Positions 3,440 to 33,823 of a stretch of 64,000 nt of DNA are shown here, piece by piece. This DNA is from Halosimplex litoreum. GTDB taxonomy: Archaea; Halobacteriota; Halobacteria; Halobacteriales; Haloarculaceae. The stretch covers positions 496,001 through 560,000 of the forward strand of contig NZ_CP065856.1 of NCBI RefSeq assembly GCF_016065055.1, read 5' to 3'. Position 1 is the first letter of the stretch, and every line of letters starts with the position of its first letter. The position numbers were made by a program, and so were the translations under genes. The notes beneath the pieces are model-generated. The model was given only the letters and a program-made list of their open reading frames with translations. It had not been told where the DNA came from and made no database searches.

Positions 3440-5470
3440 ATGAGCCACCTCCTGGCGGACCCGACTGTCGCACTCGTCGTCGGCGGATCTGCCGGCGACC
3501 GGGACCGCGTCCGCACCGCGATATCCGACGGCGACGGCGAACTCGTCGCTGTCGCCGCCGCGGACCGCAGCGACCTGACCGAACGGCTCTCCACGCGGGA
3601 CGACGTGGGCTGTGTCGTCGCCGTGGGCGTCGACGAGGCGGCGTTCGACGACGCGTACGAGGCCGCCAGAGCGGTCAGCGACCACTTGCCCGTCGTCGCT
3701 TACACCGGCGAGGCGGCCGTGGCGGCGGCGGTCGCGGCCCGCGCCGACTGCCGATACCTGCCGCGGTCGGTCGCCGTCGAGACGCTCGCGAGTGTGGTCG
3801 GTGACGCGGTCGCGACCTATCGAGAGCGGCGGCAGGCGGCGGCCGACAGCAGCGTGCTGGGGACCCTTCTGGAGGAGACCGATCTGACGGTCTTCGCCAA
3901 GGACGAAGCGGGTCGCTACGTCCGGCTGGCGGGCGTGCCGTACTCGATCGGTCCGGGTCGCACCCACGGCAAGACGGACCCGGAGGTGTTCAGACACGAC
4001 ACCGACGCCGCGACCGAGGCCTACGAGGACGACCTGGCAGTGGTCGAGACCGGCGAACCGCTCCGGAACAAGGTCGAGCGGTTCGGCGGGCCCGGCGCCG
4101 ACCACTGGTCGGAGGTGACGAAGCTCCCCTGGCGGGACGGCGACGGCGAGATACAGGGGGTCGTCGGTTTCGCGCGCGAGGTGACCGGGCGGGTCAAGAC
4201 CGAACAGAAACTCGAAGAGCAGAAAGACCGGTTCGACCAGTTCGCCAGTTACGTCTCCCACGACCTGCGGACGCCCCTGCAGATCTCCGTCGGGGCGCTC
4301 GAACGCGCCCGGGAGGGCCACGACGAGGCGTTCGACCGGATCGAGCGGGCCAACGACCGCATCGAGGAGATCCTCGAAGACCTGAGCGCGCTGTCCAAGG
4401 GCGACCGTTCGGACGTGGACCTCTCCGACGAGGTGCTGGACGTTCTCAACGTCGGCGTGCCGACGACCGAGTTCACCCCGCTGGTCGAGCGCGTCTGGAG
4501 CGTCCACGGGACCGACGATGCGACGCTCGTGGTCGACGTGCCCACGGGAACCGAGATCATCACCGACGCCGAGACCGTTCGCCCGCTCGTCGAGAACCTG
4601 CTGAAGAACGCGCTCGACCACGCCGGCCCGGACGTGACCGTCCGGGTCGGGACGATGGACCGAGGCTTCTTCATCGAGGACGACGGTCCCGGCATCCCCG
4701 AGACCCAGCGCGAGAAGATCCTCGAAGCCGGGTACACCACCGCCGAGGACGGTACCGGGACGGGTCTCGCGATCGCCACGGAGACGATCGAACAGCAGGA
4801 GTGGGACATCGCCGTCGGCGAGAGCGCGTCGGGCGGCGCCAGGTTCGAGTTCACCGACTGTCCGGTCGTGGTGCCCACCGAGACGACGCCGACGCGCAGC
4901 CTGGAGCTCACCGACAGCGCCGACGTCGGCGACGTGTCGGTCGCCGGGTCGTCCCGCCGGAACGCAGCGGACGGCGGCTGGACGGTCGTCGGTGACGGCG
5001 AGGACATCTGGCAGGACATCGACGAGTTCCACATCTGTTACGGCGAGGCGACCGACCCCGTCAGGGTCGAGGGGCGACTCGCAGACTTCGAGGGCGTCCA
5101 CGACTACAGCAAAGCCGGCCTGATGATCCGCGATAGCCTCGACGAAGACGCGGCGTTCGGGTTCGTCGGCGCGACCAACAGCCACGGCACCGAGACGCTC
5201 TGGCGAGAGGAAGACGGCGCCTACGCGGCCAGCGACCAGCTCGAAGAGCCCTACGAGGCCTACCCGTGGTATCGCATCGAGACCGTCGACGGGACCGTCA
5301 CGATGTCGTGGTCGACCGACGGCGAGGAGTGGCAGGCGCTCGACCAGCGACCCGTCGCCACTCACGGCACGGTCGTGGTCGGACTCGCCGTCTGCAGTCA
5401 CAGCGTCGACGAGACCAGCGAAGCGGTCTTCGAGGACGTGACCGTGACCGAACTCGACGTCGACGACTGA
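3440..5470 (+). CDS. Soluble PAS histidine kinase with C-terminal concanavalin-like (DUF1349-type) domain
   Basis: The protein has 676 residues. Residues 1-125 form a receiver-like fold without a clear phospho-acceptor aspartate. Residues 145-255 look like a PAS domain (VFAKDEAGRYVRLAGVPYSIG). HisKA follows with SHDLRTPLQ, phospho-His at about 274. The ATPase domain has N-box VENLLKNALDHAG, G1 DDGPGI and G2 GTGTGLAI. After a linker, residues about 510-676 form a beta-rich domain with YSKAGLMIRDS, a WYRIE strand and FEDVTVTEL, matching DUF1349/LamG-like modules usually attached to secreted carbohydrate-active proteins. No signal peptide or membrane helix is seen, so the fusion appears cytoplasmic. 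The ATG at 3440 is chosen because the upstream in-frame codons cross the probable promoter. Confidence 0.88.
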   Translation: MSHLLADPTVALVVGGSAGDRDRVRTAISDGDGELVAVAAADRSDLTERLSTRDDVGCVVAVGVDEAAFDDAYEAARAVSDHLPVVAYTGEAAVAAAVAARADCRYLPRSVAVETLASVVGDAVATYRERRQAAADSSVLGTLLEETDLTVFAKDEAGRYVRLAGVPYSIGPGRTHGKTDPEVFRHDTDAATEAYEDDLAVVETGEPLRNKVERFGGPGADHWSEVTKLPWRDGDGEIQGVVGFAREVTGRVKTEQKLEEQKDRFDQFASYVSHDLRTPLQISVGALERAREGHDEAFDRIERANDRIEEILEDLSALSKGDRSDVDLSDEVLDVLNVGVPTTEFTPLVERVWSVHGTDDATLVVDVPTGTEIITDAETVRPLVENLLKNALDHAGPDVTVRVGTMDRGFFIEDDGPGIPETQREKILEAGYTTAEDGTGTGLAIATETIEQQEWDIAVGESASGGARFEFTDCPVVVPTETTPTRSLELTDSADVGDVSVAGSSRRNAADGGWTVVGDGEDIWQDIDEFHICYGEATDPVRVEGRLADFEGVHDYSKAGLMIRDSLDEDAAFGFVGATNSHGTETLWREEDGAYAASDQLEEPYEAYPWYRIETVDGTVTMSWSTDGEEWQALDQRPVATHGTVVVGLAVCSHSVDETSEAVFEDVTVTELDVDD

Positions 5471-31515: not shown

Positions 31516-31590
31516 GGGCGCTTAGCTCAGTTTGGACAGAGTGCTTGGCTTCGGACCAAGCTGTCGCGGGTTCAAATCCTGCAGCGCCCA
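31516..31590 (+). tRNA. tRNA-Arg (anticodon TCG)
   Basis: Acceptor GGGCGCT (31516-31522) pairs with AGCGCCC (31583-31589), discriminator A31590. Anticodon stem CTTGG/CCAAG encloses CTTCGGA, anticodon TCG, reading CGA. T arm GCGGG-TTCAAAT-CCTGC. No intron and no encoded CCA. Its 3' end is the apparent attachment site of the cassettes downstream. Confidence 0.97.
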
Positions 31591-31591
31591 T
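31578..31591 (+). repeat. Attachment core, copy 1 (inside tRNA-Arg 3' end)
   Basis: CCTGCAGCGCCCAT covers the 3' half of the T stem and the acceptor strand. The same 14 bases recur at 32872-32885 and 33810-33823. The bases after it (TGTTTTCGAAGGGTGTAATC) continue to resemble those after copy 2 for about 80 bases. Confidence 0.85.
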
Positions 31592-31780
31592 GTTTTCGAA
31601 GGGTGTAATCACCAGACAGCAGCGGAGTGACCCTCCTATCGAACGGAGCGCCGTTGCTTTCGTTCGATGGACGAGCGGGGGTGTGATTCCAACCAGGGTT
31701 CGCGCACAGCAACCGGGGTTCACGTACAGCCAATCGGGTATCCACGGAAAGAATCAATCGTCGATTTGGGCGCTGGCGAG

Positions 31781-31921
31781 TTACTCGCCTTCGAGGGCGT
31801 CGTAGATGTCCCGGTTAACATTCCGGTCCTCAGCCGCGACCCGCCTGACAAGTTCCCGACGAATGTCCTCCATCACCTCGTCGAGCGGAGAGGTCGTTTC
31901 CGTCCCTTCCTCGGTGGCCAT
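31781..31921 (-). CDS. 46-residue ORF downstream of doc
   Basis: It starts 25 bases after the doc stop on the same strand and ends in TAA. The product is charged and probably helical (PLDEVMEDIRRELVRRVAAED, then NVNRDIYDALEGE), like a small antitoxin or regulator. A TATATA run at 31927-31932 lies just upstream; a transcript from it would start inside the ORF, where the second Met (residue 17) could serve. It might be the partner of the Doc toxin, since the RHH antitoxin next door looks matched to VapC. Confidence 0.55.
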   Translation of the reverse strand: MATEEGTETTSPLDEVMEDIRRELVRRVAAEDRNVNRDIYDALEGE

Positions 31922-31946: not shown

Positions 31947-32435
31947 TTAATCGTTCGGATCCGACGAATCGCCGGTCAACTGGTCGATCCCGTACTGGAT
32001 CAGATCGTCTCGCCACTCCTCGATTTCACCGGATAGATCCAGCTCTTCGGTGTGGGAGAGGAGATACTGGACGGTTTTTTCCTCATCGACGGCCGCCTCG
32101 TCAGTACCGAACCGTTTCAGGATCGTCCTGATTTCGTCGTCGTATTCGAACCGATAGCCGTTGAGGAAGTAGAAGACGACAGTCGAGTTGAGGGCGGTAC
32201 GCTTGTTCGCATCGACGAAGGGGTGATTTGCGACGAGAAGCCGGAGGAGGTGAAACGCCTTCTGGTGGATCGTCTCGGGTGCCGTACCGAAGCTCCCCTC
32301 TTCGATGCAGTTCAGCGCGAACTCGATGTCTCCTCGATTCTGGACACCGGCGGGTGTATCGGGGTACTCCGAAACGATGTCGTCGTGGATGGTCACAACG
32401 TCCTCGACCGACGGGTACCACAACGAGTCAGCCAT
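31947..32435 (-). CDS. doc: Doc/Fic-family toxin
   Basis: The 162-residue protein has the Fic core with H-P-F-V-D-A-N-K-R (residues 71-79). The lysine in place of the AMP-transferase glycine is the Doc signature; Doc phosphorylates EF-Tu. Upstream helices (VEDVVTIHDDIVSEYP, GDIEFALNCIEEG) also match death-on-curing proteins. The last 35 residues (LLSHTEELDLSGEIEEWRDDLIQYG) are an extra acidic helix pair. Its start is 37 bases after a vapC stub, in the position where the second cassette has a PIN toxin. Confidence 0.9.
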   Translation of the reverse strand: MADSLWYPSVEDVVTIHDDIVSEYPDTPAGVQNRGDIEFALNCIEEGSFGTAPETIHQKAFHLLRLLVANHPFVDANKRTALNSTVVFYFLNGYRFEYDDEIRTILKRFGTDEAAVDEEKTVQYLLSHTEELDLSGEIEEWRDDLIQYGIDQLTGDSSDPND

Positions 32436-32472
32436 TCGGTTCCACGTCGATGCCGGAGACGTGTAGGGTTTA

Positions 32473-32529
32473 CTATGAACCAGACTGATGAACGAGACCA
32501 GGGTCGCTTACGTCGCTGGTCAGCTTCAT
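32473..32529 (-). pseudogene. Truncated vapC start (18 codons)
   Basis: The sequence AGCTTCATTCGTCGAGTTTAGGCCGA, read on the minus strand from the antitoxin stop into the toxin start, is present in both cassettes. In cassette 2 it leads into the 138-residue PIN toxin MKLVIDANVV. Here the frame reads MKLTSDVSDPGLVHQSGS and stops. So a vapC gene once stood here and lost all but its first codons. Confidence 0.7.
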
Positions 32530-32538
32530 TCGTCGAGT

Positions 32539-32769
32539 TTAGGCCGACTCCTGGTCAACGCGCTTGCGTCCGCTCTGGTTGATCTTGTCGGCGATCTCCT
32601 GCACGTCGCGCTCGGTAGGTTCGCTCTCGTTTGTGAGTTCGTCCATCACTTCGAGCGCTTCGATTTTCTCTTGGATGGCCTGTCGCGTGACCTCACTCCA
32701 GTTGATCTCGGGGTGTTCGTCCATACGCTCTTTGAGGTCGTCGTCTACGTTGACCGTGATAGTCGGCAT
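32539..32769 (-). CDS. vapB: Ribbon-helix-helix antitoxin, cassette 1
   Basis: This 76-residue protein has a beta strand MPTITVNVDDDLKERM, helix-turn-helix INWSEVTRQAIQEKIEALEVM and a C-terminal tail (ERDVQEIADKINQSGRKRVD) of the kind that blocks a toxin active site. It differs from the antitoxin of cassette 2 at about nine of 76 positions. It should bind the palindrome just upstream. Its toxin contact region still resembles that of a VapC partner, although the cognate vapC is gone. Confidence 0.87.
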   Translation of the reverse strand: MPTITVNVDDDLKERMDEHPEINWSEVTRQAIQEKIEALEVMDELTNESEPTERDVQEIADKINQSGRKRVDQESA

Positions 32770-32777
32770 CTATGGAT

Positions 32778-32793
32778 ACACAGAACACTGTGT
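32778..32793. promoter_or_regulatory. Palindromic operator before antitoxin, cassette 1
   Basis: ACACAG-AACA-CTGTGT lies nine bases before the antitoxin start. The same half-sites with AATA between them precede the antitoxin of cassette 2. RHH antitoxins bind such palindromes to repress their own operon. Confidence 0.65.
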
Positions 32794-32871: not shown

Positions 32872-32885
32872 CCTGCAGCGCCCAT
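32872..32885 (+). repeat. Attachment core, copy 2
   Basis: Second exact copy of CCTGCAGCGCCCAT, preceded by GTTCGACAGTCGAAC (a perfect inverted repeat) rather than by tRNA sequence. About 80 following bases resemble those after copy 1. The rest of a tRNA is absent. Confidence 0.85.
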
Positions 32886-33042
32886 ATTTTCGAGGGGTGT
32901 AATCGCCAGACAACGTCGGGGTGACCCGTTACTCGAACGGAGCGTCGTTGCTTTCGTTCGATGGTCGAACGACGGGGGATTTCGACGGGGGTCCGCGTAC
33001 GTTCAAGCCGGTGGCAATAGCGAAAATCAATCGTTCATTGAG

Positions 33043-33459
33043 TCAGTGTGTATCGAACGACTCGATCACGTCACTCGTCGAGTGCGCCTCGACGAGGTCC
33101 TGTTCGTCGAAGTCGGAATCGTCGCTCCAGATGGCTGCATCGCTGGCTATCGCACACGCCAGATAGAGCACATCATCCGGATCTGTGTCACCGATCGCGT
33201 CATCCGCGCTCTCGATAGCCGGATAGAAATCGTCGGCAGGAACGACCTCGATGTACTGGAACAGGAGGTCGATGAACTGTGCCACTCGGTCCGGTTCCAT
33301 CCCGGACTTCTCCACGATCAGATCTTCGTAGTTCTCGATCTCGTCGTAGACGAACGCGGGTGTCAAGAGCTCGGGTTCGAGCGTGACGATGAGTTCCCGC
33401 GTTTTCGAATCGGCGATGAGTGCGGAGATGACGACGTTGGCGTCGATGACCAGCTTCAT
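33043..33459 (-). CDS. vapC: PIN-domain toxin (VapC-like ribonuclease)
   Basis: This 138-residue protein has the acidic PIN residues in order: D6 in MKLVIDANVV, E40 in FVYDEIENY, D95/D96 in DTDPDDVLYLACA and D113/D114 in IWSDDSDF. It is an Mg-dependent ribonuclease by family, usually cutting tRNA or rRNA. It starts nine bases after the antitoxin stop on the same strand, a standard VapBC operon. Confidence 0.93.
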   Translation of the reverse strand: MKLVIDANVVISALIADSKTRELIVTLEPELLTPAFVYDEIENYEDLIVEKSGMEPDRVAQFIDLLFQYIEVVPADDFYPAIESADDAIGDTDPDDVLYLACAIASDAAIWSDDSDFDEQDLVEAHSTSDVIESFDTH

Positions 33460-33468
33460 TCGTCGAGT

Positions 33469-33699
33469 TTAGGCCGATTCTTCGTCGACGCGCTTGCGTC
33501 CGCTCTCGTTGATCTTGTCGGCGATCTCCTGCACGTCACTCTCGGTGAGCTCGCTCTCGCTGGTGAGTTCGTCCATCACTTCGAGCGCCTCAATTTTCTC
33601 CTGGATGGCCTGTCGCGTTACCTCACTCCAGTTGATTTCGGGATGCCGCTCCATACGCTCCTTGAGGTCGTCGTCCACGTTGACCGTGATACTCGGCAT
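33469..33699 (-). CDS. vapB: Ribbon-helix-helix antitoxin, cassette 2
   Basis: A 76-residue protein nearly identical to the antitoxin of cassette 1 (MPSITVNVDDDLKERMERHPEINW). ATG 33699 is chosen by that comparison; six more codons upstream are open but absent from the paralogue. It is the antitoxin of the PIN toxin downstream and probably binds the palindrome at 33716-33731. Confidence 0.9.
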   Translation of the reverse strand: MPSITVNVDDDLKERMERHPEINWSEVTRQAIQEKIEALEVMDELTSESELTESDVQEIADKINESGRKRVDEESA

Positions 33700-33715
33700 A
33701 TAGAATTCTATGGAC

Positions 33716-33731
33716 ACACAGAATACTGTGT
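33716..33731. promoter_or_regulatory. Palindromic operator before antitoxin, cassette 2
   Basis: ACACAG-AATA-CTGTGT, 17 bases before the antitoxin start. The extra eight bases relative to cassette 1 are an AT-rich TATAGAATTC insertion next to the start codon. Confidence 0.65.
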
Positions 33732-33809
33732 TTTTCGGTGCGCGTAGAATCCGCTGATTTTGGCCGCCTCAGGCCGCAGAGGTCGATTCGTTCGACAGTC
33801 GAACCGGAG

Positions 33810-33823
33810 CCTGCAGCGCCCAT
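33810..33823 (+). repeat. Attachment core, copy 3
   Basis: Third exact copy of CCTGCAGCGCCCAT, with the same upstream GTTCGACAGTCGAAC as copy 2 but a different downstream flank. Confidence 0.85.

Follow-up and report, generated by a model that had tools for sequence, protein, structure and literature searches.

A Probable Deletion Between Two Toxin–Antitoxin Cassettes Places an Orphan VapB-Type Antitoxin Before a Complete Doc Module in Halosimplex litoreum

Introduction

Near a tRNA-Arg gene of Halosimplex litoreum, an antitoxin gene of the kind suited to VapC stands before a gene for the unrelated toxin Doc, and a frame of 18 codons lies between the two. How did this arrangement arise, and which protein holds Doc in check? 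A sequence-only reading of the locus had seen a toxin replacement, with a stub of vapC left behind, and offered two alternatives: either the antitoxin was re-purposed for Doc, or another protein neutralises Doc. Our analysis points to a different history. A deletion probably fused a first vapBC cassette (vapBC1) with a complete doc-ORF46 module; ORF46 would hold Doc, and the antitoxin RHH1 would be an orphan that does not serve Doc.

All coordinates given for this DNA are positions in the window, the whole stretch of 64,000 nucleotides that was analyzed. L-numbers denote loci fetched from relatives and G-numbers denote genomes.

The Two Cassettes and Their Junction

The genes follow one another on the minus strand in the order RHH2 and vapC (cassette 2, 33699-33043), RHH1, the 18-codon frame, Doc, and ORF46. 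The features are as follows.

31516..31590, plus strand: tRNA-Arg (anticodon TCG), the insertion site (ARAGORN)
31578..31591, plus strand: attachment-like repeat, copy 1, the tRNA 3' end plus one base, CCTGCAGCGCCCAT
31592..31677, unstranded: downstream end of cassette 1, common to cassette 2 (repeat D3, 31578-31677 / 32872-32971, 85%)
31781..31921, minus strand: ORF46, 46 codons, candidate Doc antitoxin (constant gene 3' of Doc)
31947..32435, minus strand: Doc toxin, 162 amino acids, Fic motif HPFVDANKR (profile and fold matches)
32436..32496, minus strand: Doc's own upstream region, probable promoter (61 nt, 83.6% to L037)
32473..32529, minus strand: 18-codon frame, called a vapC stub by the sequence-only reading
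32497..32520, minus strand: junction segment, of which the first 10 nt are possibly vapC (7/10)
32521..32529, minus strand: sure vapC remnant, ATGAAGCTG
32539..32769, minus strand: RHH1, orphan VapB-type antitoxin by profile (NF050799) and by the vapC context of its relatives, 76 amino acids
32769..32885, unstranded: upstream end of cassette 1, including a copy of the tRNA-end repeat, 32872-32885 (repeat D2, 85% to 33707-33823)
32778..32793, unstranded: palindrome ACACAGAACACTGTGT, probable RHH1 operator
33043..33459, minus strand: intact VapC (PIN_2) of cassette 2 (PF10130, 1.4e-34)
33469..33699, minus strand: RHH2, VapB of cassette 2 (262-nt repeat, profile, relatives)
33707..33823, unstranded: upstream end of cassette 2, including a copy of the tRNA-end repeat, 33810-33823
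33716..33731, unstranded: palindrome ACACAGAATACTGTGT, probable cassette 2 operator

A 262-nt direct repeat with 89% identity contains RHH1 and RHH2, and the homology that the two cassettes show as far as the ATG greatly exceeds what chance would give. As the sequence-only reading had noticed, the junction between antitoxin and toxin is common to both cassettes down to the toxin start: 26 nt are identical (CGGCCTAAACTCGACGAATGAAGCTG), ending in ATGAAGCTG. In cassette 2 this start opens an intact PIN toxin adjoining RHH2, as expected of a VapBC system. In cassette 1 the frame (MKLTSDVSDPGLVHQSGS, then a stop) does end after 18 codons and is followed by an intact Doc gene.

The claim that these 18 codons are a vapC stub is not borne out beyond their beginning. 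Compared with the intact vapC, nt 1-9 match at 9/9 positions and nt 10-19 at 7/10 (shuffle P 0.004); for nt 20-57 the figure is only 13/38. Since vapC opens with nearly the same codons at the same place after vapB in the relatives examined, the remnant can be put at 9 to 19 nt, of which 9 nt are certain and 19 nt are perhaps the most that vapC left. Homology thus essentially ends after a few bases, an outcome that the sequence-only reading had itself named as counting against its proposal. RHH1 has no intact PIN toxin adjoining it and in this respect differs from the antitoxin of a VapBC pair.

The remainder of the frame is not vapC. Eight of its 19 triplets (stop included) fall inside the region upstream of Doc. 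This region (32436-32496) aligns without gaps to the 61 nt 5' of Doc in a plain Doc cassette of a relative (L037; E 2e-13), and 12 of 55 Doc upstream regions scored above all 2000 shuffles, implying that Doc brought its own upstream region. The 24-nt segment between these parts (32497-32520) was compared with both parents, vapC and the Doc upstream region, and fits neither well, so the exact breakpoint is not fixed.

Doc and Its Downstream Partner

Doc carries the marks of a Fic/Doc toxin. It matches the Fic family of Pfam (3.5e-9) and the Doc subfamily profile TIGR01550 (65 bits, cut-off 38.65), the catalytic motif HxFx[DN][AG]NKR is intact, and the fold matches that of phage P1 Doc (3dd7; Foldseek E 3e-4, TM-score 0.84 by target length). 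Fic/Doc toxins are known for phosphorylating a translation elongation factor and arresting growth. By analogy with P1 Doc, the target here is presumably an elongation factor.

The neighborhoods of Doc were compared in two overlapping sets, namely 29 loci (56-84% identity) fetched from 195 related genomes and 30 loci from named genomes (Halorubrum, Halosimplex, Halapricum, Natrinema, and others). The viral contigs searched contain no relative of either Doc or VapC. The gene 5' of Doc is not constant among relatives, and vapB is its immediate 5' neighbor in 0/29 genome-wide and 0/30 named-genome loci. The sequence-only reading had also named a standing association of Doc with this antitoxin in other genomes as an outcome against it, and no such case appeared. 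In one relative only, Halapricum hydrolyticum (G054), does a vapBC lie close to Doc, and there it forms a separate cassette.

The constant partner is on the other side. A homolog of ORF46 lies directly 3' of Doc in all 29 genome-wide and all 30 named-genome loci; in the latter, Doc occupies 4001-4486 and ORF46 starts at 4515 in every locus except the frameshifted L157. A small acidic ORF with a conserved C-terminal Y..L..E follows most of the more distant Docs sampled (about 48-57% identity); at a few sampled Doc loci no ORF of this kind passed the filters used. Residues R21, D32, Y40, L43, and E46 of ORF46 are invariant in an alignment of 16 sequences. Two loci (L143 and L157) have a broken Doc next to an intact ORF46, which is the order in which a toxin–antitoxin pair would be expected to decay. 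The ORF46 product is a helical acidic protein of 46 residues with no recognizable DNA-binding domain, and its AlphaFold model consists of two helices (pLDDT 85). It gave nothing significant against Pfam, NCBIfam, PADLOC, or solved structures.

From this genomic association, ORF46 is likely the antitoxin of Doc, and the suggestion that another protein neutralises Doc becomes the better of the two earlier alternatives. By a published criterion (PMC2701414), conserved pairing of a small gene with a known toxin family is strong evidence for an antitoxin. It is nevertheless conceivable that ORF46 is something else, such as a regulator or a second subunit, and that Doc is inactive at this locus or is neutralised in another way: ORF46 resembles no known antitoxin family, and association alone does not demonstrate neutralisation. 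The intact catalytic motif, the lack of a constant gene 5' of Doc, and the pairing criterion itself all speak against this, and we judge it quite unlikely.

That RHH1 was re-purposed to neutralise Doc, so that RHH1 and Doc form a hybrid module, seems very improbable. The antitoxin-toxin order, the single direction of transcription, and the intact RHH1 would suit it, and toxin swapping by antitoxin families has been described (PMC10440598, PMC8832971). However, Doc retains its usual partner and its own upstream region, RHH1 is still close to VapB (89% to RHH2), and the pairing of RHH1 with Doc occurs in no other genome searched.

RHH1, an Antitoxin Without Its Toxin

RHH1 resembles VapB (NF050799, 1.1e-8), yet scores under the curated cut-off, and gave no significant match to solved structures. 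Its assignment comes from context. A search of the 195 related genomes, its own left out, yielded 29 fetched loci, and in all 29 the gene following the RHH1-like gene is vapC; 26 of these vapC genes are essentially full length. The description of RHH1 as an antitoxin suited to VapC that now precedes an unrelated toxin is therefore borne out, and RHH1, as judged from its relatives, is an orphan VapB-type antitoxin that retains its palindromic operator. The other three vapC genes (L013, L025, and L027) are truncated at nt 140, 106, and 78; there vapB is intact and the vapC homology stops abruptly, and these appear to be further orphan antitoxins.

Loss of the toxin from a toxin–antitoxin system is tolerable, and loss of the antitoxin first is not. 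This rule fits the four cases in which vapB has outlived vapC, that is, the present locus and the three just mentioned.

What RHH1 still does is a separate matter. It is predicted still to bind the operator type shared by the two cassettes, and it may counteract the intact VapC encoded in cassette 2, either by neutralising or by repressing it. Whether it is instead a nonfunctional relic that leaves the neighboring VapC unaffected concerns RHH1 only and is compatible with the deletion; we regard this as possible rather than probable. Eight base pairs are absent at 32770-32777, between operator and start codon, in comparison with RHH2 and relatives, and a leucine nearly invariant among relatives is replaced (L51P). 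With this substitution and the shortened leader, RHH1 may be decaying. On the other side, its reading frame and operator are intact, and it differs from RHH2 by 9 nonsynonymous and 16 synonymous changes (dN/dS 0.11). A recent duplication producing RHH1 and RHH2 was also considered, and the vapB gene tree does not resolve it.

The tRNA-Arg Insertion Site and Shared Cassette Ends

The only tRNA gene in the window is that for tRNA-Arg(TCG). Its last 14 nt occur in three copies (at 31578, 32872, and 33810) with cassettes 1 and 2 between them, and only toxin–antitoxin genes were recognized between these repeats. No recombinase is encoded within the units. In the Halosimplex relatives examined, KaiC-like and CoA-binding genes adjoin the 5' side of tRNA-Arg and the 3' side varies; the latter is a variable insertion site.

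In relatives, modules of the vapBC, Doc, and DUF433/DUF5615 kinds are bounded by similar tandem copies of the tRNA end, and in some of these genomes they lie beside tRNA-Arg itself. The DUF433/DUF5615 module with the same cassette ends (L064, 9363-9993) is a third kind of toxin–antitoxin module at this site. The 68-nt upstream end of cassette 2 scored above all shuffles 5' of 16/29 vapB loci and 29/55 doc loci, and the downstream end is also common to Doc cassettes (72% over 175 nt in L040). These matches imply that cassette ends are common to unrelated toxin–antitoxin modules. When the upstream end was used as a query, 26 of 116 genomes, the own genome included, proved to have it. The idea that such modules are the sole cargo of the shared ends was dropped, since neither Doc nor VapBC adjoins several of them; the upstream ends in L174, L192, and L171 lie near other or no recognizable genes.

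In Halosimplex pelagicum R2 (G003), a plain Doc cassette adjoins the same downstream neighbor gene as in the window. It is followed by a tRNA-end repeat and a tyrosine integrase (L071, 8071-10261), and the tRNA lies about 60 kb away; this is probably an integrated element that uses the same tRNA site. Elsewhere (L103, L111, L115, and L121), units of about 112-123 nt with inverted copies of the tRNA T-arm follow tRNA-Arg and look like empty attachment units.

Fusion by Deletion or Replacement

The preferred history begins with two cassettes, vapBC1 and doc-ORF46, that would have lain side by side as tandem insertions behind the 3' end of tRNA-Arg(TCG). A loss of roughly 0.65 kb, a size estimated from the geometry of cassette 2, would have run from codon 3-7 of the first vapC to a point about 60-85 nt short of doc. 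Almost the whole of vapC1 would have gone, together with the boundary between the cassettes and the tRNA-end repeat. Two things would remain: RHH1, an orphan vapB that still has its operator, and the Doc module, complete with its own upstream region, in toxin-first order and with ORF46 as the likely antitoxin. Gene content, junction, the constant partners in relatives, and the shared cassette ends are observed; the deletion is what we infer. An intermediate with vapC1 adjacent to this Doc was not found among close relatives.

A true replacement, with doc-ORF46 moving into a vapBC cassette through illegitimate recombination and displacing vapC, would give the same end product with the same function today, and cassette ends common to both types would be compatible with it. 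A single deletion is enough, however, and in G054 a vapBC cassette and a separate doc-ORF46 cassette lie next to each other in just the order that the deletion requires. We therefore consider replacement unlikely; the upstream region that Doc brought with it and the overall layout are best explained by cassettes fused through deletion, contrary to the earlier proposal.

As a replacement the locus would be ordinary. Its interest lies in recombining toxin–antitoxin cassettes and in a possible new family of antitoxins for toxin-first Docs. It illustrates how an orphan antitoxin can originate, with recombination inside tandem cassettes dropping the toxin and leaving the antitoxin, and it marks tRNA-Arg 3' ends as places where unrelated modules have cassette ends in common. 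The ORF46 family, which has no name, probably supplies the antitoxin for a group of Docs found widely among haloarchaea; the public records inspected either overlook it or list it as hypothetical (without annotation in a Natrinema plasmid, "hypothetical protein" in Halorubrum ezzemoulense). The open-access titles and abstracts surveyed contained no description of the cassettes or of a downstream Doc partner. Going further, haloarchaeal Docs might be governed by a new family of downstream antitoxins of about 45-60 residues that have no DNA-binding domain, and here the orphan VapB might have been recruited as the DNA-binding repressor, so that neutralisation (ORF46) and transcription control (RHH1) are split between two modules. 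We offer this as speculation and think it distinctly unlikely.

Comparison with Known Systems

The toxin resembles that of Phd-Doc of phage P1 in fold and Fic motif. In Phd-Doc, phd lies directly 5' of doc; here RHH1 holds that position, the toxin comes first, and its 46-residue partner lies downstream, with no Phd similarity detectable in the searches run and, unlike Phd, no recognizable DNA-binding domain. Cassette 2 is an ordinary vapBC, and RHH1 is a VapB relative whose probable operator is of the same type; cassette 1 departs from VapBC in that its vapC is reduced to 9-19 nt and its vapB is orphaned.

For the arrangement as a whole, the closest parallel is with CIMEs and with tandem accretion at tRNA 3' ends, which have been described for bacterial ICEs and IMEs (PMC5704250). 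As in CIMEs, integrase-free units lie in tandem between copies of a tRNA 3' end at one site, and a relative carries an integrase gene beside the same repeat. In contrast to CIMEs, the present units are haloarchaeal, are only about 1 kb long, and often hold a single toxin–antitoxin module.
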